Part shown: positions 1 to 12,917 of the stretch, piece by piece | Numbering within the stretch: position 1 is the first letter of the stretch | Layout: each line of letters opens with the position of its first letter | Assembly (NCBI GenBank): GCA_021785125.1 | Contig: JAJYGF010000022.1 | Span: 1-40,180, forward strand | Length of the DNA stretch: 40,180 nucleotides | Source of the DNA: a bacterium | Lineage (GTDB): Bacteria > Patescibacteriota > Minisyncoccia > Moranbacterales > UBA2206 | Direction of reading: 5' to 3' | Position numbers and translations under genes: made by a program | Notes under the pieces: generated by a model | The model's input: the letters and a program-made list of their open reading frames with translations, nothing else | What the model was told of the DNA's origin: nothing | The model's database searches: none

Positions 1-291
1 TCTATTGCTAAATACATCAAAAAGATAAAATATTTTATCTTCTCTAGCTTTTAACAAGTTATGGATTTCCCCATATTTAAGACCTGCCTGATAAAATTCT
101 AGATGCAAAATTCTAATACTAGATTTTTTTTCAGCCAGAGAAAATTCAAATTCATGAAAAAATATACTTTCCTCATTATTAGAGTCAGGCTTGTTTAGCT
201 CAAGCATTTTAGAAAAAATAAATTCACCGCCCCTTATTTTATAAGCTGACCGTAAAATGTGGATAAATTTTTTATATTTTAAATTGTCCAT
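1..291 (-). CDS. Partial hypothetical protein, paralog of the partner protein at 1360-2256
   Basis: This is the N-terminal 97 codons of a gene that runs off the left edge. The ATG at 291 lies two bases after the stop of the radical SAM gene at 294-1391, so the two are very likely co-transcribed. The visible part starts MDNLKYKKFIHIL and has no signal peptide or membrane segment. By eye it aligns with the 298-residue protein at 1360-2256: both have an FEFSL stretch, then a basic segment, a conserved tyrosine, and an ending like KIFYLFDVF versus DIFLTF. I infer that it belongs to the same unrecognised family and is the second member of a duplicated radical SAM plus partner cassette. Its function is unknown and its C-terminus is not visible. 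Confidence 0.7.
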   Translation of the reverse strand, partial: MDNLKYKKFIHILRSAYKIRGGEFIFSKMLELNKPDSNNEESIFFHEFEFSLAEKKSSIRILHLEFYQAGLKYGEIHNLLKAREDKIFYLFDVFSNR

Positions 292-293
292 AG

Positions 294-1391
294 TTATTCA
301 AAAATGCTTTCAGCTGCTATTTTAGAATATTTTTTAAACATACTGCGGTTTTTAGATCTTTCCCTTATTTTTTCGGCCGTGTAGATTGAAGATAAATTAC
401 GGAAATGCAAAACATCATTAGCAAAATAATTATTAGAGCTATCATCATATCCACTCCAGCATGCCTGACATACTGGACTTCCATAAGAATGCAAGCAGGA
501 TGAATATTTTATGTTCATACCTCTACTAATATCTCCGACAAGATAGTTTATTTTGTTTCTCGAATTGATCAGAAAGGGAGAAAAAGACATTTCTCCGTCG
601 GGATAAATTTCGATATTTTCATAAATTGGACATGTCCTTCTATTCCCACTTAACCGATTATTCCGAAGCTCCCTATTGATAGAATTAAGAAAAATAAAAT
701 TTCCCGCCGGAATATTTTTATAGATATGATTGATAAACTTAGATAGATTCCTATAAAATAATTTTTTGTGTGTTTCTCGCCAAATAAATTTACTACTTTG
801 TATAGGCTCAACATTTATATTTTTAAAACCGCAACTGACCAAAAAATTCAAATTATTCAACATGACTCCAGCCGCATCAGGCAATACTCCAAATAATACG
901 CTGATATTCTGCTTTTTTGTCATTCCAATAGCCAATGGTATATTTTTAATCACTTTGTCGAAAGAACCAGCCTTATTCGAATAGACCCTAGCTCTATCAT
1001 GTATTTTTTTTGTACCATCCATGCTGATAGCTAATTTAACATCATATTTCTTAAAGAATTCCAACCTACTTTTGTTCAACAAAATAGCATTAGTACCTAC
1101 AGACACCATCACATTTTTCCTCAATTTTTTTCCTCTTTGCCTGTAAAATTTAATTATACTCTTGAGCAAAATCCAATGAATCAAAGGCTCTCCCCCATAA
1201 ATTATCAGTAACTTTTCTCTTCCGGGCGATTCCAACAAGAAGTTTACAGCCTTTTTAGCAGTGGCAAGCGACATAACCCTTTTATCCTTATCGACAAAAC
1301 AATACTTGCAATCCAAAACACATTCGGTCGTTATGGCAAGCCTTAAAGCATAAATTTCCTTATTGAATTTTTGTTTTTTTCGGTTTTCCAT
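294..1391 (-). CDS. Radical SAM/SPASM-like peptide-modifying enzyme (cassette B)
   Basis: The protein has 365 residues and is a radical SAM enzyme of the SPASM/Twitch type that modifies ribosomal peptides. The [4Fe-4S] motif CxxxCxxC is at residues 24-31 (CVLDCKYC) and a canonical GGEP is at 66-69. The C-terminal third has SPASM-like features: a cysteine before an IEIYPDGEMSF stretch, then YLVGDI, then CLHSYGSPVCQACW with closely spaced cysteines that could bind an auxiliary cluster. It overlaps the upstream partner gene (1360-2256) by 32 bases and is followed two bases later by a paralog of that partner, so translation is probably coupled. No precursor peptide gene is visible beside it. It is most similar in layout to the enzyme at 2231-3307. 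The enzyme class is clear; the substrate and the bond formed are unknown. Confidence 0.85.
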   Translation of the reverse strand: MENRKKQKFNKEIYALRLAITTECVLDCKYCFVDKDKRVMSLATAKKAVNFLLESPGREKLLIIYGGEPLIHWILLKSIIKFYRQRGKKLRKNVMVSVGTNAILLNKSRLEFFKKYDVKLAISMDGTKKIHDRARVYSNKAGSFDKVIKNIPLAIGMTKKQNISVLFGVLPDAAGVMLNNLNFLVSCGFKNINVEPIQSSKFIWRETHKKLFYRNLSKFINHIYKNIPAGNFIFLNSINRELRNNRLSGNRRTCPIYENIEIYPDGEMSFSPFLINSRNKINYLVGDISRGMNIKYSSCLHSYGSPVCQACWSGYDDSSNNYFANDVLHFRNLSSIYTAEKIRERSKNRSMFKKYSKIAAESIFE

Positions 1392-2256
1392 AAGTCAAAA
1401 AAGTTATATAAAGAGATAATCTGTTTTTTTCCAGAGCTACCACCTCAATCTCTCCTTCAGTATTTTTTATTATAGTCCTGATCCTATCAAGTAGTACCTT
1501 ATTTTTGGTGACGGCTAGTAGTTCTGCAAGAAAATTTCTGCTTACCCTAGGATGGATTTCAATCTTTTTTGAGATAAAGCTTCCACCAGAATATCTTTCC
1601 ATGACATCAAAATAGTCCAGTCTATTTCTTTTGTACAGCCAATCAAATCTATTTCTTATTTCTTTTGTAAAATACATAGAAATAAAACGTTCATTGTTAT
1701 ATATATAATATATCTTATGACTAATTAGACTGCCGCTTGCATTGTAAATTAATCCCAGCATAGCTATTTTTTCTTCTTTAATATTTGGATCTATTTTTAA
1801 TATCTTTAAGATTGTTCCCACGAAATTATTGGCCAATGATTCATCCTTAAGATTGAGATTAAAAAAATTTAGATATAGTTTGAAAAAAATATTCCCTTGC
1901 TTAATTTCAAAACCGATTGTCAGGGGAAATTTCAATGATTTAATACCCTTGAGAATGATTAAAACATTTTTTAATTCTGACTCCTCCGAGAAGGTTAGAA
2001 AAATATCCTCGAGCAGACTTATCCTTCTTAAAAAACTAGCTCTATTTTCATGATAACTATCATAATTCACAAACCTCAGGGTCTTTTTTAATTTCTTATT
2101 TTCTATTTGCAATGAAAATTCGAATCTTGTTTTTTCATCTTTATCGCTTATGCTTATTAAATTCAAAATCAAATCAACCTTGGATCTATTCTCTGGATCT
2201 AAACTAACTTCATTAAATAACTTATTAAAATTATTTTTTAATTTCTGAAGTGACAT
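1360..2256 (-). CDS. Unrecognised partner protein of the radical SAM cassette
   Basis: This 298-residue protein is not one I recognise. It has no signal peptide, membrane helix or cysteine cluster, so it is probably cytoplasmic. It is rich in Lys, Ile, Phe and Asn. From about residue 100 it has alternating hydrophobic stretches that look like beta strands (for example near TIGFEIKQGN, FFKLYLNF, AMLGLIYN, KIYYIYNN). The gene overlaps the stop of the upstream radical SAM gene by 26 bases and the start of the next one by 32 bases, so it sits between two radical SAM enzymes in one transcript. A truncated paralog follows the second enzyme. The strand pattern vaguely recalls PT-barrel prenyltransferases, but no diagnostic motif supports that. 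It could equally be a recognition or scaffold protein. Confidence 0.75.
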   Translation of the reverse strand: MSLQKLKNNFNKLFNEVSLDPENRSKVDLILNLISISDKDEKTRFEFSLQIENKKLKKTLRFVNYDSYHENRASFLRRISLLEDIFLTFSEESELKNVLIILKGIKSLKFPLTIGFEIKQGNIFFKLYLNFFNLNLKDESLANNFVGTILKILKIDPNIKEEKIAMLGLIYNASGSLISHKIYYIYNNERFISMYFTKEIRNRFDWLYKRNRLDYFDVMERYSGGSFISKKIEIHPRVSRNFLAELLAVTKNKVLLDRIRTIIKNTEGEIEVVALEKNRLSLYITFLTYGKPKKTKIQ

Positions 2257-3307
2257 ACTCCGAGACTTTTAGCCAAATTTTAAATAATTCTCTATACATC
2301 TCTAGCGGCCTATTGGTATCTCCACCGATAAGATAATTCCAAGCAAAACAACTCATATTCGGATTGATTCCTTGAAACTTAGCCAGGATTTCTGGATTAC
2401 CTATGCCATTTTCTATGTTTCCACATATCAAATCATCCTTCTTATTGTAACGGACCGAACTTAAGAAATAACACGGATAGATGTCTCCGTTCTGCGCAAT
2501 ATTAATATTTGTTCCACCTCCACAGCAGGACTGCGCCATCGTGTTTTGTTGTTCGACCAGATTCAAAAAAGTGAAGTTCATAGGAAAACATTCGGAACTA
2601 CATATATTTATCAGCTTGTTTTTTCTGAAATTAGCTATAAAAATATCAGCAACTTGGAATAATTGATTCTCAAACATAGAATAGTTTTTTCGCTGCCATT
2701 GTCCACGATCGACAACTGGACTAACATTTATCCTGGTTTTATAGGCCAATCCTTTATTAATTACATATTGGATGGTTTTGCTCAAGAATGGAAGAGTCTC
2801 GGGGGTAATGGTTACTCTTATTTCTATATGTTTATTAAAATTTTTTCTTAGTAAATCCAGTTTTTTATCTAATATCTCGAAGGTTCCTTTGTTTTGTTCA
2901 TATACTCTATTGACATTCTGCGCTTCCTTTATTCCATCTACACTAATCATAGGTACGACATTGTGCTTACTGAAAAATTTCAAAATTCGCTTGTCCAAAA
3001 GCAAAGAGTTTGTCCCAAGATCAAACCTCCTTACTCCCATTTTTTCAGAATACCTTATAACAGATTTCACTAAATCCCATTCCATCAAAGATTCAGCTGT
3101 AACAAAGCTTACAATAACATCCTTATACCCTAAAGACACAGCAAAATCCACTGCTTTTTTAGCAGTGTCCAAAGACATTCTGCCCTTACCTTTATTGATA
3201 TAGCAATACTTGCAATGCAAATTACATTTGTCCGTTATATTTAAGGACAAATTAAGAAGGTCCTTTCTACCAGGGATAACTTTTTGCTGAGATTCATTTA
3301 AAAACAT
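2231..3307 (-). CDS. Radical SAM/SPASM-like enzyme with altered GGE motif (cassette A)
   Basis: The 358-residue protein has the radical SAM cluster motif at residues 28-35 (CNLHCKYC). Its C-terminal SPASM-like region contains two adjacent cysteines, an NINIAQNGDIYPC stretch and further cysteines. Where the family normally has GGEP, after a beta strand, this protein reads TAES (about residues 70-73): both glycines and the proline are gone and only the glutamate remains. That motif normally contacts the amino group of SAM, so binding or activity may be changed. The rest of the domain, including LGTNSLLL and SVDG, looks intact. It is the first gene of the second transcription unit, just downstream of a promoter-like sequence and the terminator of the HXS operon. 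The substrate is unknown, and no precursor lies within this unit. Confidence 0.85.
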   Translation of the reverse strand: MFLNESQQKVIPGRKDLLNLSLNITDKCNLHCKYCYINKGKGRMSLDTAKKAVDFAVSLGYKDVIVSFVTAESLMEWDLVKSVIRYSEKMGVRRFDLGTNSLLLDKRILKFFSKHNVVPMISVDGIKEAQNVNRVYEQNKGTFEILDKKLDLLRKNFNKHIEIRVTITPETLPFLSKTIQYVINKGLAYKTRINVSPVVDRGQWQRKNYSMFENQLFQVADIFIANFRKNKLINICSSECFPMNFTFLNLVEQQNTMAQSCCGGGTNINIAQNGDIYPCYFLSSVRYNKKDDLICGNIENGIGNPEILAKFQGINPNMSCFAWNYLIGGDTNRPLEMYRELFKIWLKVSEYVTSEIKK

Positions 3308-3314
3308 ATTGTTA

Positions 3315-3344
3315 ATTTTACCATAAAATCCGCCGTTTTGTCAG
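3315..3344 (-). promoter_or_regulatory. Promoter of the second radical SAM unit, possibly leaderless
   Basis: On the minus strand a CTGACA at 3339-3344 is followed after 18 bases by TAAAAT at 3315-3320. The ATG of the radical SAM gene begins only seven bases past the -10 box, so transcription would start at or next to the start codon. No Shine-Dalgarno sequence is present. The box matches are seen directly; promoter function and leaderless initiation are inferred. Confidence 0.45.
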
Positions 3345-3346
3345 AA

Positions 3347-3374
3347 TCAAAAAAACCGGCAGAAACCGGTTTTT
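3347..3374 (-). terminator. Rho-independent terminator of the HXS operon
   Basis: On the minus strand, just after the stop of the Cys-rich gene, the arms AACCGG and CCGGTT form a hairpin followed by a run of T residues. It separates the HXS unit from the downstream radical SAM unit. The opposite strand also carries T residues, so it may act in both directions. Confidence 0.75.
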
Positions 3375-3384
3375 CTGATTTTAT

Positions 3385-4332
3385 TTACTTGAATTGATCC
3401 TTACACTGCTGGTAATGAACTCTATTCGCAGAGTCCTTTTGGGGTATTTTTTCACAAATAGACGGATCGTTCTGCATCTTTGCCAATTCTGAAGCATACA
3501 TCTCATAGCATGCATTATTCTTGTAAAATTCATTCAGTTCATTTTCTGGATCTTTTACAGTGGCCATTTGACAAAAAAGATTGGTAAGCCCATCAGTCGA
3601 ATTGGTTTGTAAGCATTCATTAGAATTTTTATCTACAATAGCCTTTACAAACTCCACACTTTCTTTACAAAGACTTTGCGCTTCGCTAGCTGAAATTTGA
3701 CCACAGTCCTCAATAACACCTTGGTCCTTGGAAGAACCACCATTTGTAGATATGCATGCTCCGATACTATCGTAATTACTTGTTAATTTTTGACATATGC
3801 TATCATCTCTCGTAGCTGAACCTATGCATATATTATTTTTTAGCTCATCCTTTATATTGCATAAAGAACTGTCTTTTTTAACTGTCGCCAAACAAATAAT
3901 TCCATCATCGGCATTTATTTTTGCAATTTTATCGCAATATTTATCATTATTTTCCGCAATTGCGGTTATCCCATATAAAGTTTTAAAGCAGTAATTTTTA
4001 TCTTGATCATTTGAAAGTTCATCACAGCTTTGAATATTCTTATCAGCAATAGCTTGTGCAATAAAATAAAAGATGCTGTTTTCATAATCGCTAAGAGTAA
4101 CACTGGAATCATATTGTTTTTGCCCTATGTCTTTCTGACAATTTTCCAGAGAAGCTACTATTTCTTTATCCACATTGCTAAGTTTTTTTGTTTGCTCTTG
4201 ACCAGTTTGCTTAATTTGATTAGTTGGACTTTCCAATTTTACATGATGCAACTTATAGCTGCCCACAACAATAACAATTAGGATTATTGTAATAATTGCT
4301 GCTATTATTAGTATTTTTTTTGTTTTCTCCAT
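3385..4332 (-). CDS. Membrane-anchored Cys-rich repeat protein of the HXS operon
   Basis: The 315-residue protein has a short Lys-rich N-terminus, one strong hydrophobic segment at residues 7-24 and a long hydrophilic remainder that should lie outside the membrane. The outer part has 16 cysteines (65, 103, 115, 133, 147, 158, 169, 180, 193, 210, 222, 240, 254, 275, 293, 310), spaced 10-38 residues apart. They form degenerate repeats of the type D-x-x-x-C-x-x-L/I ... C ... A ... D. Similar Cys-repeat proteins of unknown function are known to me from CPR bacteria and archaea. It is the last gene before the terminator and starts ten bases after the precursor gene. Possible roles are binding, exporting or displaying the mature peptide, or disulfide bonding with it. 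I cannot assign a function. Confidence 0.8.
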   Translation of the reverse strand: MEKTKKILIIAAIITIILIVIVVGSYKLHHVKLESPTNQIKQTGQEQTKKLSNVDKEIVASLENCQKDIGQKQYDSSVTLSDYENSIFYFIAQAIADKNIQSCDELSNDQDKNYCFKTLYGITAIAENNDKYCDKIAKINADDGIICLATVKKDSSLCNIKDELKNNICIGSATRDDSICQKLTSNYDSIGACISTNGGSSKDQGVIEDCGQISASEAQSLCKESVEFVKAIVDKNSNECLQTNSTDGLTNLFCQMATVKDPENELNEFYKNNACYEMYASELAKMQNDPSICEKIPQKDSANRVHYQQCKDQFK

Positions 4333-4342
4333 TTTTTTTATT

Positions 4343-4573
4343 TTAGCACCAACCTCCTACGGAATGCGAACCATGGGAACCATGGGAACCATGGGAAGTA
4401 TGGGTGCAATTAGCATTTGCATCGCCTGGTTTTATCAATCCATTCATAGCCCCGGTTATTGCTGCTAGTGTTATACCGAACTTGATCGCATTTTTTTCAA
4501 TTATTTTTCCCTCCTCGCTTGATAAAAATGCTTTGAGTTCTTTTTTAATCTGAGGAAAATCTGTTTTTTTCAT
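4343..4573 (-). CDS. HXS-type RiPP precursor peptide with His-Gly-Ser repeat core
   Basis: The 76-residue peptide has a charged leader (MKKTDFPQIKKELKAFLSSE and onward, with the SSEEGK stretch that I recall from HXS leaders), a hydrophobic helix at about 30-48 and a short Cys-flanked core. From residue 56 the core reads C-T-HTS-HGS-HGS-HGS-HS-VGGWC: four His-Xaa-Ser triplets plus a fifth His-Ser, with cysteines at 56 and 76. This matches the His-Xaa-Ser repeats of HxsA-family substrates, though it is far smaller than many. The gene lies ten bases downstream of a radical SAM/SPASM gene in the same operon as HxsB and HxsD. The hydrophobic segment and the ANAN before the core suggest export and cleavage there. 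No clear Shine-Dalgarno sequence precedes the ATG. Identification as the substrate is inferred from repeat and context. Confidence 0.85.
   Translation of the reverse strand: MKKTDFPQIKKELKAFLSSEEGKIIEKNAIKFGITLAAITGAMNGLIKPGDANANCTHTSHGSHGSHGSHSVGGWC
4371..4397 (-). repeat. Three perfect 9-bp repeats encoding His-Gly-Ser
   Basis: CCATGGGAA occurs three times in tandem without a mismatch (4371-4379, 4380-4388, 4389-4397) and is flanked by diverged copies. The unit length is exactly three codons, so gain or loss of units would lengthen or shorten the peptide core without shifting the frame. Confidence 0.9.
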
Positions 4574-4583
4574 TTTTATTTAT

Positions 4584-5696
4584 TTAAAATTTATATAAAT
4601 TTATAAAGCTTGGATTATATTTCAAATCTTTTTTCAATTTCAAAAAATTTTTGATATATGCCTTAGAAATTGAACAGAATGAATCAAAATAATCTCCGCC
4701 ATTCTCTTTAAAATAAATTTGATTGCCCAAGGGACAGAAACAATAATCTTTATAAGAACATTCTAGACATTTTTGGCCTACAGTTTCAAAAAAACCCTTT
4801 CTCAATCTATTCAAAATCCGCTTTCTTTTTTCATCATTTATCTTTTCAACATCCATCTTGCCTACTAAATACTTTTCCTTTGTTTTTCCATTCAAAGAAA
4901 GCGCCTTGTCACAAACATAAAATCCGCCCTGCGGTCCAACATTGATTTTTCCGCAATTATTCATTCTTCCCAGGCCTATATCATTTGTAAATGAATCCAA
5001 TAGAGAATTTTTAAATGATTTTTTATTTTTTAAAGTTGTTTTATAAAATTTGGAAAATTCAGCCAATGATTTTTCAAAATTCTTTATTTGTTTAGGAGTC
5101 CATGTAGCATAAAGATCCGGATAAAATTCAATGTAATAAAAATCCTCGGCCTGTAATCTTTTTATATTTTTCAAAAGCTCACTTGCCGATTCAGGCACAA
5201 CGACCATCGAGGCCGCCAATTTAAGATCGTGTCTATCTATATTATGCAAATTTTCCATCACTCTGTCAAAGCTGGATGCGCCTTTTTTTTGCACAAATGG
5301 CCTGTTGGCATCGTGTGTCTTGCGATCACCATCAAGGCTGATTTTTACTATAAACTTATTTTTTCTAAAAAAATCAACCTTATCTTGATCAAGCAACGTC
5401 CCATTAGTCACAATTGACACATCCAGCACGATTTTCTTTTCATCAGCTTTTTGCCTGGCGTATGAATATACTTCTTTAATCAGATCAAATTCTATCGTCG
5501 GCTCACCTCCGCTGAAGGCTATCGTTTTTTTCTTCCCCGGGTATTTAAAAAGAGCATCGATGGATTTTTTTATCTGCTCCAAGCTCAAGGTCTTTTTGCC
5601 AATTTCTTTTTTGCTGACGAAGCAATATTTGCAATTCAAATTGCATTTTCCGGTCAGGAAAAGATTCAGAGATTGGGGATAGTCCTTTTTATCCAT
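4584..5696 (-). CDS. Second radical SAM/SPASM maturase of the HXS operon
   Basis: The 370-residue protein has CxxxCxxC at residues 18-25 (CNLNCKYC), GGEP at 63-66 and a full SPASM-like C-terminus: NCGKINVGPQGGFYVC, then CLECSYKDYCFCPLGN. This predicts a SAM-cleaving cluster plus one or two auxiliary clusters for peptide cross-linking or epimerisation. It lies seven bases after hxsB and ten bases before the precursor gene. In the classical HXS system the second enzyme is HxsC, which as I recall carries a CLMCSQPP-like cluster motif. That is absent here, so this looks like a replacement rather than an orthologue. A generic anSME-like or SPASM maturase that acts on the same precursor is the most likely role. 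Direct proof of pairing is lacking. Confidence 0.87.
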   Translation of the reverse strand: MDKKDYPQSLNLFLTGKCNLNCKYCFVSKKEIGKKTLSLEQIKKSIDALFKYPGKKKTIAFSGGEPTIEFDLIKEVYSYARQKADEKKIVLDVSIVTNGTLLDQDKVDFFRKNKFIVKISLDGDRKTHDANRPFVQKKGASSFDRVMENLHNIDRHDLKLAASMVVVPESASELLKNIKRLQAEDFYYIEFYPDLYATWTPKQIKNFEKSLAEFSKFYKTTLKNKKSFKNSLLDSFTNDIGLGRMNNCGKINVGPQGGFYVCDKALSLNGKTKEKYLVGKMDVEKINDEKRKRILNRLRKGFFETVGQKCLECSYKDYCFCPLGNQIYFKENGGDYFDSFCSISKAYIKNFLKLKKDLKYNPSFINLYKF

Positions 5697-5703
5697 TACG
5701 TTG

Positions 5704-7140
5704 TTATAGCCAGCTTTCCAAGATCGGTCTTACTCTTTTATCATTTATCTTCGCAAATAAATAATCCAGAATGGCCTTATTTATCTTGCACTTATCCGTA
5801 TTTGTAATTTGCGGAAAAATCGTGCCGTATTCTATGTAGTTAGTCAAAGGGCAGATGCCGCAATATGGCTTGTAGACGCAATCCAAACATCCTGCCTGAT
5901 TATCCAAGCAGGAGGCAAGCCCCATGATCTTGACGGTCTCATTATTGAGCATCCTGTCGTAATCATTTTCAAAGACGTTGCCCAATCTAAAGTTACTATG
6001 CCCCATGCGCTCAGCCATCCTTCCTTCATCGCAAGTATAAACGATGCCGTTGTAATCATACGCCATCTGTCCGATTCCCGCGCCGCACGGGGATCGCATT
6101 TCTAAATAATTCGGATCTTTCTTTTTCAATATCTTTCTCAGTAGATAAAAAGTATTTATCTCTTTGAAAAATTGGCCTTTCAAATTCAGCTCCAGGATAT
6201 AGTCCATGGATCTTTTATAGAATCTTATGAATTCTTCCGCGCCATACCCAATGATTCCCGCCGTCTGCCTTTCGAGTCCCAATGGACTGAGCGGACGCAA
6301 GAATATTCCGTCCAAACCCAACCGCTTATATTCATCGATAATCTCTTTGTACTTATTCAAAGAAAATCTGGTCGTGGTCAAAATACCATGGATAGGAAAA
6401 ATTGTTTTGCCTTTTTCTTTCTTTCTTTTTTCGGCCATGGACTTTTGGATCTTTTTTATTTGGGCTGTTACCAACTCATGGCTGTCACCTTCGGCAAAGA
6501 TCCTGTTTTTATTATGCACGTCGGCTGGACCGTCAAAAGAAGTTGAAATTTCCACATCTTCTTCCAACAAAAACTTCAACTTCTCACCATCCATAAGGGT
6601 CAGATTCGAAACAAGACTAATTAGGAGATTTTTTTTCTTCGTCTCATTCAGGCCTTTGGCATATTTAACGATGTATTTCAATACCTTCCAGTTCAACAAA
6701 GGCTCCCCGCCTTGAAATTCGATCCGTATATTATTGGACGGTGATTTAAAAATCGTATCCACCACCTTTTTGGCGGTCATTTCCGTCATGTCGGTTCCAG
6801 ACACATCCTTAGCAACCGGACTAACCTGGCAATACAAGCAGCGATGATTGCAACGCAGAGTCAGAACGATGATATGCAAGCTCGGCCCTTGCAAGAAAGA
6901 TTTATTAAATCTCAGATATTTATCGATCAATTCCGGATAATTTTTCTTGTTTCTGATAAAAAATTTTTTCTCCAATTCAGCAAACACATGGCTTTCGGCA
7001 GACAACTTCCCATTCTTAAAATCAGCAAAGTCTTTTTCCGAAGCATACATCCATTCGCCGAAATCATTCGTCAAAAGATATTTGCCCTTTATTTTTTTAA
7101 AATTAAATTTTGCCGGTTTAAACGGATTAGATTTGCTCAT
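5704..7140 (-). CDS. hxsB: His-Xaa-Ser system radical SAM maturase HxsB
   Basis: The 478-residue protein matches the HxsB layout. An N-terminal domain (about 1-85) contains YLLTNDFGEW and serves as a leader-binding-like region. Then follow SLHIIVLTLRCNHRCLYCQVSP with the cluster cysteines at 97, 101 and 104, GGEP at 144-147, the STSFDGPADVHNKNR stretch and FLRPLSP. The C-terminal SPASM region includes SPCGAGIGQMAYDYNG, CLDCVYKPYCGICP and more cysteines. I recognise these motifs from the HxsB family (radical SAM paired maturase). It overlaps the upstream HxsD-like gene by 14 bases and precedes another radical SAM gene by seven, so it belongs to the HXS operon. The GC content looks higher than in the genes to its left. 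The chemistry on the HXS core is not established from the sequence. Confidence 0.92.
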   Translation of the reverse strand: MSKSNPFKPAKFNFKKIKGKYLLTNDFGEWMYASEKDFADFKNGKLSAESHVFAELEKKFFIRNKKNYPELIDKYLRFNKSFLQGPSLHIIVLTLRCNHRCLYCQVSPVAKDVSGTDMTEMTAKKVVDTIFKSPSNNIRIEFQGGEPLLNWKVLKYIVKYAKGLNETKKKNLLISLVSNLTLMDGEKLKFLLEEDVEISTSFDGPADVHNKNRIFAEGDSHELVTAQIKKIQKSMAEKRKKEKGKTIFPIHGILTTTRFSLNKYKEIIDEYKRLGLDGIFLRPLSPLGLERQTAGIIGYGAEEFIRFYKRSMDYILELNLKGQFFKEINTFYLLRKILKKKDPNYLEMRSPCGAGIGQMAYDYNGIVYTCDEGRMAERMGHSNFRLGNVFENDYDRMLNNETVKIMGLASCLDNQAGCLDCVYKPYCGICPLTNYIEYGTIFPQITNTDKCKINKAILDYLFAKINDKRVRPILESWL

Positions 7141-7354
7141 TTATGCATAAAGATAACAAGTAATTAGAAAATTCATTTGCGAAAGCGTCCGGGTTAAAAA
7201 CATCCATTGCTAAAATTTCCGAATGATTCATTTTTGCCTTTACTGTAAATTTTGCCAGGCCGGCATAATCCCTTATCGCCCTTTTGATGTTTTTGGCCGG
7301 ATAAATCCTGTTATTGAATTCCAGCACGATCTTATTTTTTTCGTTTTTTTGCAT
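7127..7354 (-). CDS. Short HxsD-like protein
   Basis: This 75-residue protein follows the longer HxsD and overlaps it by 23 bases; it also overlaps hxsB by 14. Its pattern resembles the longer protein: a beta strand (IVLEFN), then RIYP, a helix with A and Y, two strands, and a closing NEFSNYLLSL that matches the NELL part of HxsD. It lacks the long C-terminal tail. HxsD is a small accessory protein of HXS systems, probably a leader or enzyme-binding partner. Two such proteins in tandem suggest a heteromeric pair. Homology is judged by eye and is weaker than for the first copy. The translational overlaps make co-expression with hxsB very likely. Confidence 0.72.
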   Translation of the reverse strand: MQKNEKNKIVLEFNNRIYPAKNIKRAIRDYAGLAKFTVKAKMNHSEILAMDVFNPDAFANEFSNYLLSLCINEQI

Positions 7355-7820
7355 TTCCTTGGATTATGGTTCTTATGTTCAAAGGATCGCTTTCGTAATC
7401 ATCTCCCGCATCTAAAGCCTCTATCTCCTTTTTCAAAAGAGCGACTTCGTCTTCCAGTTCTTTTTCTTCCGAATCAACCGCCTTGGTCTCAAACTTATTT
7501 TCCAAAGAAGCGGCGATGGCCCCCTCTACAATAGTTTCAACCAACTTTTTATTGGCGGAAAAAATTTCTTTTCTTACAAGCCCATTCAATAATTCGTTTA
7601 GAAATTCTCCCTTGGCTTTTTCAGCTTCACCTTTTCTGAAGCCGTCTTTAGATCTCAGCCTTACGCTGAATTCGGTTTTATTTTTATCTAGATAAATATA
7701 AAATTTATCAATGAACGCATAGCAAGCTTTAAAAATTATATCCTTACTGTATATTTTTTCACTTACATTAAAAACCGCTTCTTGATTAGTTGCACTTATT
7801 TTAGATCTTTCTTTTGCCAT
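7332..7820 (-). CDS. hxsD: His-Xaa-Ser system protein HxsD, with acidic C-terminal extension
   Basis: The 162-residue protein is the first gene of the HXS operon. Residues 15-90 fit the HxsD family: NVSEKIYSKDIIFKACYAF, then FYIYLD, a strand reading EFSVRLRSKDG, and GEFLNELLNGLVRKEI at 71-86, which corresponds to the family's LLNDYxLRE-type motif. HxsD proteins are short, so the stretch from about 110 to 162 is an added acidic and basic tail (EEKELEDEVALLKKEIEALDAGDDYESDP and onward, ending KKRKK). The role of HxsD is thought to be accessory to the radical SAM enzymes. The gene starts with a plain ATG 40 bases downstream of a promoter-like -10 box. Its family is fairly secure because hxsB lies two genes downstream. 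Confidence 0.82.
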   Translation of the reverse strand: MAKERSKISATNQEAVFNVSEKIYSKDIIFKACYAFIDKFYIYLDKNKTEFSVRLRSKDGFRKGEAEKAKGEFLNELLNGLVRKEIFSANKKLVETIVEGAIAASLENKFETKAVDSEEKELEDEVALLKKEIEALDAGDDYESDPLNIRTIIQGNAKKRKK

Positions 7821-7859
7821 TTTTTTGGTTAATAGTTTATCTTATTGTATTATATTTGT

Positions 7860-7887
7860 ATTATATCAACATAAAAAATTATATCAA
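7860..7887 (-). promoter_or_regulatory. Promoter of the HXS operon
   Basis: On the minus strand TTGATA (7882-7887) and TATAAT (7860-7865) are separated by 16 bases, about 40 bases before the hxsD ATG. Further TATAAT-like hexamers at 7849-7854 and 7878-7883 lie in the same AT-rich intergenic stretch. A plus-strand TATAAT at 7901-7906 may serve smpB, so the region holds divergent promoters. Confidence 0.55.
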
Positions 7888-7930
7888 ACACATATTTGCC
7901 TATAATTACCTGTACTTATAAAATACTAAC

Positions 7931-8377
7931 ATGCCCATATTAGCCGTCAACAAAAGGGTCACCTACGATTACGCGATCTCGGACAAATACGAAGCCGGCT
8001 TGGTGTTGGCCGGACAGGAGGTAAAATCGGCAAAAACAGGACATATAAGCCTAAAAGAAAGCTTCGTGACGGTCCGAGGCGGCGAACTTTATCTGACCAA
8101 TGCCAACATCCCTCCGTATGAGCATGCCGGCGAGATCAAAAACTACGATCCGACCCGACCCAGAAAACTTCTGCTCAAAAAATCGGAAATCCGGCATTTG
8201 ATCGGAAAAGTTCGCGTCCAAGGCTTGACATTGGTACCGATCCGAGTGTATACTAAAAAACGACTATTGAAGCTGGAATTCGGCTTAGGCAAAGGGAAAA
8301 AAGAATTTGATAAGCGTGAAGACATTGCCAAAAGAGAAGCAGACCGCAAAATGAGGCAGAAGCTTAAAAATTTTTAA
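7931..8377 (+). CDS. smpB: SsrA-binding protein SmpB
   Basis: The 148-residue protein binds tmRNA and brings it to stalled ribosomes for trans-translation. Typical features are the NKRVTYDYAISDKYEAGLVLAGQEVKSAK start, the GHISLKESFV stretch, the RKLLLKKSEI segment, and the basic GKKEFDKREDIAKREADRKMRQ tail that inserts into the decoding channel. Length is normal for the family. The gene lies about 120 bases upstream of ssrA on the same strand, the expected partner. No strong Shine-Dalgarno sequence precedes the ATG. The AT-rich spacer upstream is shared with the divergent HXS operon. Confidence 0.97.
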   Translation: MPILAVNKRVTYDYAISDKYEAGLVLAGQEVKSAKTGHISLKESFVTVRGGELYLTNANIPPYEHAGEIKNYDPTRPRKLLLKKSEIRHLIGKVRVQGLTLVPIRVYTKKRLLKLEFGLGKGKKEFDKREDIAKREADRKMRQKLKNF

Positions 8378-8500: not shown

Positions 8501-8883
8501 GGGGTTGCTTAGTTTCGACAGGTTGTACGTTTAAAATATGCAAGCCGAGAATGATGATCACTCGTAAAAATTTTATCGACGTTATAAGTGCAAACTTCAT
8601 AACAAAAGCAAAGTCGGCATTTGCGCAAGCATTTGCATTTGCTCCTGCTTTGGCCTAATTGCCGAAGCCATCGGCGCGCCGATTCTCAATACGCGTTCAC
8701 CGGTGCCATATCATTGAGATAGGAATATGCTCCGCTTAAAGCATATCTTGAAAGCAACTAAGCTGGAATAAAAAGGTTTTGTCCGTTTATTACTTTTTAT
8801 TCGAAATCATAAACCGACTACGCTTGTAGATTATTTTGAATGGATAATTTTGGACGCGAGTGCAATTCTCGCCAACTCCACCA
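8501..8883 (+). ncRNA. ssrA: Transfer-messenger RNA (tmRNA)
   Basis: The 5' end GGGGTTG pairs with CAACTCC near the 3' end to form the seven-base acceptor stem, with the last bases ACCA encoded. The 3' part carries the expected T-arm (GGACGCGAGTGCAATTCTCGCC). The resume codon is most likely GCA at 8590, by comparison with the E. coli GCA-AAC start after an ATA-like upstream motif. The reading frame from 8590 to the TAA at 8656-8658 gives a 22-residue tag that starts ANFITKAK and ends AFAPALA. That is longer than the common ten-residue tags but has the usual hydrophobic Ala-rich end recognised by proteases. The spacer to smpB and its partner function are typical. Confidence 0.95.
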
Positions 8884-11894: not shown

Positions 11895-12917
11895 TCAGCG
11901 CGGATCTGCATACAGCTTCTTGGCCGCATCCCACATCTCGGGATGATTTTCTTTGACTTTCAGCCAATACCACCACTCCACTCCCCATAGGTAAATCTGA
12001 GGGAAGCCGACTTTTTCGGCATAATCGACATTGGTACGCAATTGATCCGGATTCATAGACTTGAATTGTTCACTAAGCGGATCGGTAGTGGTCTCTCCGT
12101 TTATCCATGGCTCCGCTTGAAGTTCGATTACGATCGCATTGTATTGATGCGCGAATGTTTTGATCAGCCAATCCTTGAACTGGAAAAATCTCGGACCGAT
12201 CGGATACTGATAATATCCGATGCCTTTTTTCCAGATCGTGCGATACATCGTCGTTCCGAAAATGTCGGCTCGGCTGGCAGCCGGAATCCACATGCCCAGC
12301 TCGCCACTGTCCGTCACAATCACCTTGCGCGTTGGATCGATATTGTGCACCAGTGCTATTTCGCTGTCCAAAAGATTCGCGTCCGCCGGCGGACAAATTC
12401 CGAAGCCCAAAAAAGGCTCGTTTTCGACCTGCCAATATTTTACGGTCGGATCGGACTTGTATCTTCTGACTGTCGTATCGATATATTTCAAAAGATCTCC
12501 GTGATATGCCTGCTTATCATTCTTGGCCCAATCCGGCACGTTGCACTCCGGCCAACGGGGCGTCTTTTGGCCGACAGCCAAAATTATTTCGGCGCCTCTT
12601 TTTTTCGCTTCACTCAATTCCCAATCCACATCGGCAAAATCATAGCCGCCTTTATACGGCTCAACCTGACTCCAATAAACCGGAATGCGAATCTTGCGGA
12701 TCTTCAGATCATCAAGCATAGCCGTATAAGCCGCTTTCCAATCCAAGCCGATGCTTGTGGCGTACGTATCGGAAAAAGTAACTCCCAGCCGCGCGTTGAC
12801 GTTAGTATTGGATACGGGCAAGTTGAAATATCCCAGAAGCGCCAAGGTCAATCCGAAGATAACCGATAAAGAGATCCCCAAAAAAACAAATACTCTTTTG
12901 ATGATTTTTCTAAACAT
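11895..12917 (-). CDS. Membrane-anchored TIM-barrel glycoside hydrolase
   Basis: The 340-residue protein has an N-terminal anchor (residues 8-30) and a TIM-barrel glycosidase of the GH-A clan type, similar in style to GH5 or GH39. RIPVYWSQVEP (about 77-87), YWQVENEP (E167 as likely acid/base) and VIELQAEPW (E265 or E269 as likely nucleophile) fit the pattern of glutamates at strands 4 and 7. GVEWWYWL occurs near the C-terminus. The substrate is unknown. The gene overlaps the upstream EamA gene by one base and ends with TGA, which supports the standard code. It may cleave exopolysaccharide or host glycans outside the membrane. Confidence 0.8.
   Translation of the reverse strand: MFRKIIKRVFVFLGISLSVIFGLTLALLGYFNLPVSNTNVNARLGVTFSDTYATSIGLDWKAAYTAMLDDLKIRKIRIPVYWSQVEPYKGGYDFADVDWELSEAKKRGAEIILAVGQKTPRWPECNVPDWAKNDKQAYHGDLLKYIDTTVRRYKSDPTVKYWQVENEPFLGFGICPPADANLLDSEIALVHNIDPTRKVIVTDSGELGMWIPAASRADIFGTTMYRTIWKKGIGYYQYPIGPRFFQFKDWLIKTFAHQYNAIVIELQAEPWINGETTTDPLSEQFKSMNPDQLRTNVDYAEKVGFPQIYLWGVEWWYWLKVKENHPEMWDAAKKLYADPR

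Follow-up and report, generated by a model that had tools for sequence, protein, structure and literature searches.

What kind of peptide-maturation system is encoded by a tightly packed set of His-Xaa-Ser (Hxs) genes in a member of the Patescibacteria (CPR), and where does it end? We have analysed a window of 40,180 nucleotides, positions 1–40180 of a contig, from an assembly of 917 kb (~0.92 Mb) in 24 contigs. An earlier note on this DNA had claimed a complete six-gene variant His-Xaa-Ser operon at 3385–7820. The hxsDBCA His-Xaa-Ser system (NCBIfam TIGR03976–TIGR03979) is named, after Haft and Basu, in PMC9062424, which calls its maturation putative. Hxs systems have so far been defined in silico, and in the open-access literature we have found no prior report of an Hxs product or its chemistry, nor a prior description of RiPPs with radical SAM enzymes in Patescibacteria or Elusimicrobia.

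All six open reading frames have been recovered at 3385–7820, on the minus strand and separated by gaps of −23 to +10 nt. The curated NCBIfam cut-offs were used throughout (HxsB 370, HxsD 50, HxsD-like 41, HxsA3 65, HxsC 267.9 and PapB 340 bits). Both proposed HxsD-family genes exceed them, namely HxsD at 7332–7820 (TIGR03976, 62.1 bits) and an HxsD-like protein at 7127–7354 (NF038315, 51.4 bits). The gene at 5704–7140 encodes the HxsB radical SAM/SPASM maturase (TIGR03978, 512.5 bits); that is, the lack of an HxsB match, which the earlier note had named as the outcome counting against it, is not what we have found. Next to it lies the predicted second radical SAM/SPASM enzyme (rSAM2, 4584–5696, minus strand), which has SPASM-like cysteines and occupies the HxsC position. 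No protein of the window genome exceeds the HxsC cut-off (TIGR03977), and the best of them, rSAM2, reaches 54.3 bits against 267.9. Therefore rSAM2 is not HxsC, and the system is a variant rather than the classical hxsABCD, in agreement with the earlier note. The best match of rSAM2 is PapB (176.1 bits), followed by HxsB (135.3 bits); as the PapB model (NF047865) requires 340 bits, we have rejected its identification as a PapB ranthipeptide maturase. An ortholog with 44% identity is found at the same place in L063 (L-numbers denote fetched loci, and G-numbers genomes of the same class, of which 384 were sampled).

The His-Gly-Ser precursor at 4343–4573 (minus strand) is also as predicted; it has four contiguous HxS units, and no other ORF of the window has as many as three in a row. 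It is composed of a conserved charged leader, KKELKAFLSSEEGKI, a hydrophobic segment, ANA at residues 52–54, and the core NCTHTSHGSHGSHGSHSVGGWC; the residues available in the core are His, Ser, Thr and Trp. We class it as HxsA3-like only, since its NF038309 score of 45.3 bits (E 5.5e-12) is under the cut-off of 65; the counterpart in L069 scores 61 and a related precursor in L036 scores 65.4. The leader K-K-x-I-K-x-F-L-x-S-E-E-G-K and the hydrophobic segment are common to ~60 HxsA proteins, many of which carry an A-x-A-like site ahead of the repeats. Considering that the number of HxS repeats varies from 4 to ~56 and that several of these proteins are fused to long C-terminal domains, a displayed or structural product is favoured. 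The leader, the hydrophobic segment and the repeat range fit export and display, with secretion a prediction from them. In four HxsA proteins (L037:1503–3068, L060:5248–6915, L084:3311–4825 and L082:10505–11959), a long C-terminal domain that terminates in SKGYYT or similar comes after the repeats; the fusions of L037 and L060 match no Pfam family above cut-off. Such domains suggest a displayed protein.

On the other hand, the claim of a complete six-gene system does not hold, and 3385–7820 was too narrow a boundary. Same-strand Hxs-associated genes run on past 3385 with three further genes and a truncated one, down to position 1, which is the contig end and cuts the array. These genes, all on the minus strand, encode a radical SAM protein (rSAM4, 2231–3307), a 298-aa relative of ABBA-fold peptide prenyltransferases (PT1, 1360–2256), another radical SAM protein (rSAM3, 294–1391), and the N-terminal part of a second PT-family protein (PT2, 1–291). 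The two prenyltransferase relatives, outside the coordinates first proposed, are the most unusual parts of the array. The GC content is 31–37% over 1–8000, the island, versus 42–50% further along. Between the two blocks, a consensus scan gives a terminator-like palindromic hairpin at 3351–3374 (plus-strand row, no strand assigned) and then a promoter-like site upstream of rSAM4 (3315–3344, minus strand, 10/12, consensus scan only), which may split the island into two co-directional units. Another promoter-like site, upstream of hxsD (7860–7887, minus strand, 11/12), comes from the same scan only, in which the overall count is near chance. A tmRNA gene at 8501–8883 (Rfam RF00023, 155 bits; not called by ARAGORN) and an SmpB-like ORF at 7931–8377 flank the AT-rich island.

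No Pfam or NCBIfam model covers the PT1 family; PF11991 and TIGR03429 reach at best E 0.011 and 0.17 among its members, below their cut-offs. Iterated profiles have gathered 12 near-full-length members of this family of PRENYLTRANSFERASE relatives and one fragment, all inside Hxs loci. The profile of this alignment, compared with the PDB at E up to 10, matched only SmiF (1.1e-5) and 8ye0 (0.0057), the latter a peptide prenyltransferase of the LynF/TruF/PatF family titled KgpF. The AlphaFold2 model of PT1 (pLDDT 80.9, pTM 0.80) shows repeated alpha-beta-beta-alpha units with five strand pairs, and among the matches listed by Foldseek against the PDB all 50 are prenyltransferases, including IptA (2.9e-7), LimF (1.3e-6), PirF (1.4e-6), KgpF (2e-5), PatF (1e-4) and CymD (TM 0.67). 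The PT2 fragment aligns to the family with an hhalign E of 6e-8 and a genome-search E of 3.6e-7. By sequence and predicted fold, we identify both proteins as relatives of ABBA-type peptide prenyltransferases. They resemble the F-family cyanobactin-type enzymes (SmiF, KgpF, LimF, PirF and PatF) in the five alpha-beta-beta-alpha units, the length of ~300 aa and the profile and Foldseek matches, but PT1 is only 12–15% identical to the solved enzymes and reaches no family model, and the window PTs lie among radical SAM genes rather than in a cyanobactin cluster.

As to the prenyl donor, the window genome has IspH (2.7e-87), and no PF00348 or PF01255 synthase has been found in it. The closest PT-bearing relatives (G624, G542 and G693) possess both IspH and PF00348, the carriers G642 and G530 neither, and G349 PF00348 only. 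A C5 donor is thus plausible here by virtue of IspH, while the supply is uneven across PT carriers. As to the acceptor, a terminal Trp as the PT-specific target was rejected. In each of the 11 PT loci an HxsA terminates in W or WC, yet the majority of precursors from loci lacking PT share this ending (11/13 with PT vs 29/43 without, p 0.20), and p falls to 0.008 only in the subset of Patescibacteria, Omnitrophota and Schekmanbacteria. Most short HxsA forms terminate in W, WC or Y, and short HxsA3/A4 precursors from different phyla conserve a C-terminal aromatic residue (GGWC, GQW, GSW, GSY), PT or no PT.

The two radical SAM proteins beside the PTs both retain CX3CX2C. In rSAM3 (PapB, 151.8 bits) the SPASM cysteines are incomplete; a relative with 34% identity lies beside a PT in L117. 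In rSAM4 (PapB, 169.2 bits; PF04055, 3.1e-15), TAES replaces the SAM-binding GGEP of relatives, including one with 31% identity in the L117 array, and judging from this motif the protein may be altered or inactive. PapB is the best family match of rSAM2, rSAM3 and rSAM4 alike, but all three score at about half its curated cut-off, and the window precursor does not belong to the Cys-rich PapA type.

The remaining gene of the six, at 3385–4332 (minus strand), encodes the Cys-rich anchored protein foreseen by the earlier note, with 16 Cys and, in its AlphaFold2 model (pLDDT 81.7), a membrane-length N-terminal helix and helical hairpins. It matches no known family in Pfam, NCBIfam or the PDB sequences, and its model has no significant fold match in the PDB. 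Profile iteration from six seeds has yielded 47 family ORFs in the fetched loci, distributed over Patescibacteria, Omnitrophota, Schekmanbacteria and Elusimicrobia. As they are only 13–29% identical to the window protein, position is stronger evidence of membership than sequence: all 47 lie at most 1.5 kb from HxsA or HxsB, and 31 of them at most 150 nt from HxsA. In the class-wide search, the eight strong matches (E below 1e-29) all fall in HxsB-positive genomes, and six weaker ones (E 1e-6 to 1e-10) are scattered. The protein belongs to a hitherto unnamed family that accompanies HxsA/HxsB in at least four phyla, and it provides a second marker tying Hxs loci together across them.

Overall, the description of the locus as a variant His-Xaa-Ser operon in a CPR-type genome is supported, and it is not a one-off. 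HxsB is over the cut-off in 19 of the 384 class genomes (~5%); in a phylum-wide set of 380 genomes, 3 reach it. Only one of the 19, G638, also has HxsC over the cut-off (362.6 bits), in the classical hxsDBCA order, and it belongs to the same family of genomes as the window host. A contig search with a three-sequence HxsB alignment returned 79 loci, while the single HxsB protein alone gave no matches. Outside the phylum, HxsB relatives occur in Elusimicrobia, Omnitrophota, Schekmanbacteria, Myxococcota, Planctomycetota and one Woesearchaeon. The order HxsD, HxsD-like, HxsB, rSAM2, HxsA3, Cys-rich gene and a further radical SAM gene is repeated in L063, L066 and L069. Since HxsB recurs in the class and the relatives keep the gene order, we regard the system as real and recurrent.

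In the HxsB tree, the window protein clusters with those of L063, L066, L069 and L068 at 100/100. For the Patescibacteria, the label has to change five times or more along well-supported branches, and the proteins of a Patescibacterium (L056) and a Schekmanbacterium (L074) are paired at 100/100; these two loci each carry HxsA, the Cys-rich gene and a PT. The cassette thus appears, from its sequences, to move between phyla, and the GC contrast of the island together with the cross-phylum pairing favours horizontal transfer.

By its sequence, the island comprises HxsD, HxsD-like, HxsB, an HxsA3-type precursor, three further radical SAM proteins, two PT relatives and the Cys-rich protein, and this array recurs in other genomes. 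From this gene content and the predicted fold we infer the chemistry, the order of steps and the display as follows. The charged leader of the precursor would dock on HxsB/HxsD in the cytoplasm, where radical chemistry by HxsB and the adjacent rSAM2 would change the His-Gly-Ser units. PT1, rSAM3 and PT2 would together modify the core once more, most likely by placing a short prenyl group on His, Ser or its C-terminal Trp. Export of the modified core across the membrane would then be directed by the hydrophobic segment of the leader and its ANA site, and the membrane-anchored Cys-rich protein would hold, fold or display it. A secreted or surface-displayed modified peptide is more likely as the product than a freely diffusing antibiotic. 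That the array is a horizontally acquired HxsA3-type peptide-maturation island with this mechanism is our main reading, to which we give a probability of roughly 0.55. Against a prenylating island speak the hairpin at 3351–3374, the losses in PT motifs, the uneven isoprenoid genes and the divergence of the Cys-rich family.

The hairpin, followed by its promoter-like site, would in particular suit an arrangement in which only the Hxs block at 3385–7820 acts on HxsA3 and the PT/rSAM block is a separate neighbouring pathway sharing the AT-rich island. Many Hxs loci have no PT, in line with two pathways, and no second precursor has been identified within 1–3307, where the contig ends. We nevertheless consider such a separation unlikely. 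The PT family occurs in 8 of the 384 class genomes, all HxsB-positive (Fisher 7e-12, a value overstated since the genomes are related). In L069 the PT starts 10 nt past the Cys-rich gene (12019 to 12030), and PT and HxsA share one array in L117, L108, L074, L056 and L060, the last of which also repeats the PT1-rSAM3-PT2 order. In G567, PT and HxsB are on different contigs, with the PT beside a weak Cys-rich-family match and an HxsC-like radical SAM gene. Against our main reading, the Hxs loci of Elusimicrobia show no PT although their precursors are of the same type, so prenylation would not be general to Hxs.

It is rather improbable, in our judgement, that the PT relatives do not prenylate and are ABBA barrels with altered catalysis, binding the peptide or a different donor, though their low identity to solved enzymes and the uneven isoprenoid genes among carriers point in that direction. 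So do the motifs in part: in R-x-K-x-Y, PT1 has F in place of the R of most relatives, and the K is missing in two close relatives, L069 and L117. However, K181, Y183, R221 and Y283, candidates for the basic diphosphate-binding residues and the tyrosine shield, are invariant or nearly so and lie on strands, and they retain the alternating K-x-Y spacing, which faces the barrel in ABBA enzymes; E46 of PT1 is aligned with the acidic LECS residue in SmiF, and IspH is present in the window genome. We attach little probability to a plain Hxs operon, with a diverged HxsC in its normal role and the additional genes as bystanders. The HxsA3, HxsA4, HxsC4 and HxsD-like models of NCBIfam imply that curators have met such variants, but rSAM2 matches the PapB and HxsB models better than the HxsC model, G638, from the same genome family, has a true HxsC, and the PT and Cys-rich families are without any model.

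Returning to the array itself, it shares with classical hxsDBCA, e.g. in G638, HxsB and HxsD over cut-off and a His-x-Ser repeat precursor beside the enzymes, but it lacks HxsC, has an extra HxsD-like gene, carries an A3-type leader and precursor instead of a long HxsA, and adds the Cys-rich partner, the PT relatives and three more radical SAM proteins. It resembles the HxsA3/HxsA4 and HxsD-like subtypes (NF038309, NF038313 and NF038315) in its HxsD-like protein over cut-off, A3-type leader and repeats, but the precursor has 45.3 of the 65 bits, and no model covers the PT and Cys-rich genes. It is conceivable, at a little short of even odds, that this is a hybrid RiPP class, in which several radical SAM enzymes modify a surface-displayed or secreted His-Xaa-Ser peptide, a new ABBA PT family prenylates it and a Cys-rich membrane protein is its dedicated partner, all encoded by a cassette mobile among Patescibacteria, Omnitrophota and Schekmanbacteria. 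One cluster would then link radical SAM chemistry with predicted prenylation, and reduced Patescibacteria would be predicted to invest in elaborate peptide modification. As the PT family is confined to HxsB-positive genomes of the class, it offers a concrete, assayable candidate modification.

Some related loci contain other enzymes. A relative of A24 (prepilin-type) peptidases is present in 36 of 96 distinct Hxs loci, from Elusimicrobia, Omnitrophota, Patescibacteria and a Woesearchaeon (e.g. L117:17617–18486, L069:4008–4958 and L083:13695–14849, plus 33 more loci), with two catalytic-type Asp invariant (D22 and D82 in A4). These may process HxsA leaders (FLxSEEG-K). For the window HxsA a dedicated A24 peptidase was rejected, as the only A24 protein of the window genome is an ordinary one adjoining pilin genes; in the relatives such processing is plausible. 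At least 12 radical SAM enzymes surround HxsB within ~20–30 kb at G349:C7:81760–104519, G540:C1:171372–190318 and G594:C56. A YcaO cyclodehydratase lies at L066:13247–14590 (PF02624, 1.6e-58), inside the Hxs/PT array of G693, and weaker YcaO relatives are found in the L069 and L084 loci.
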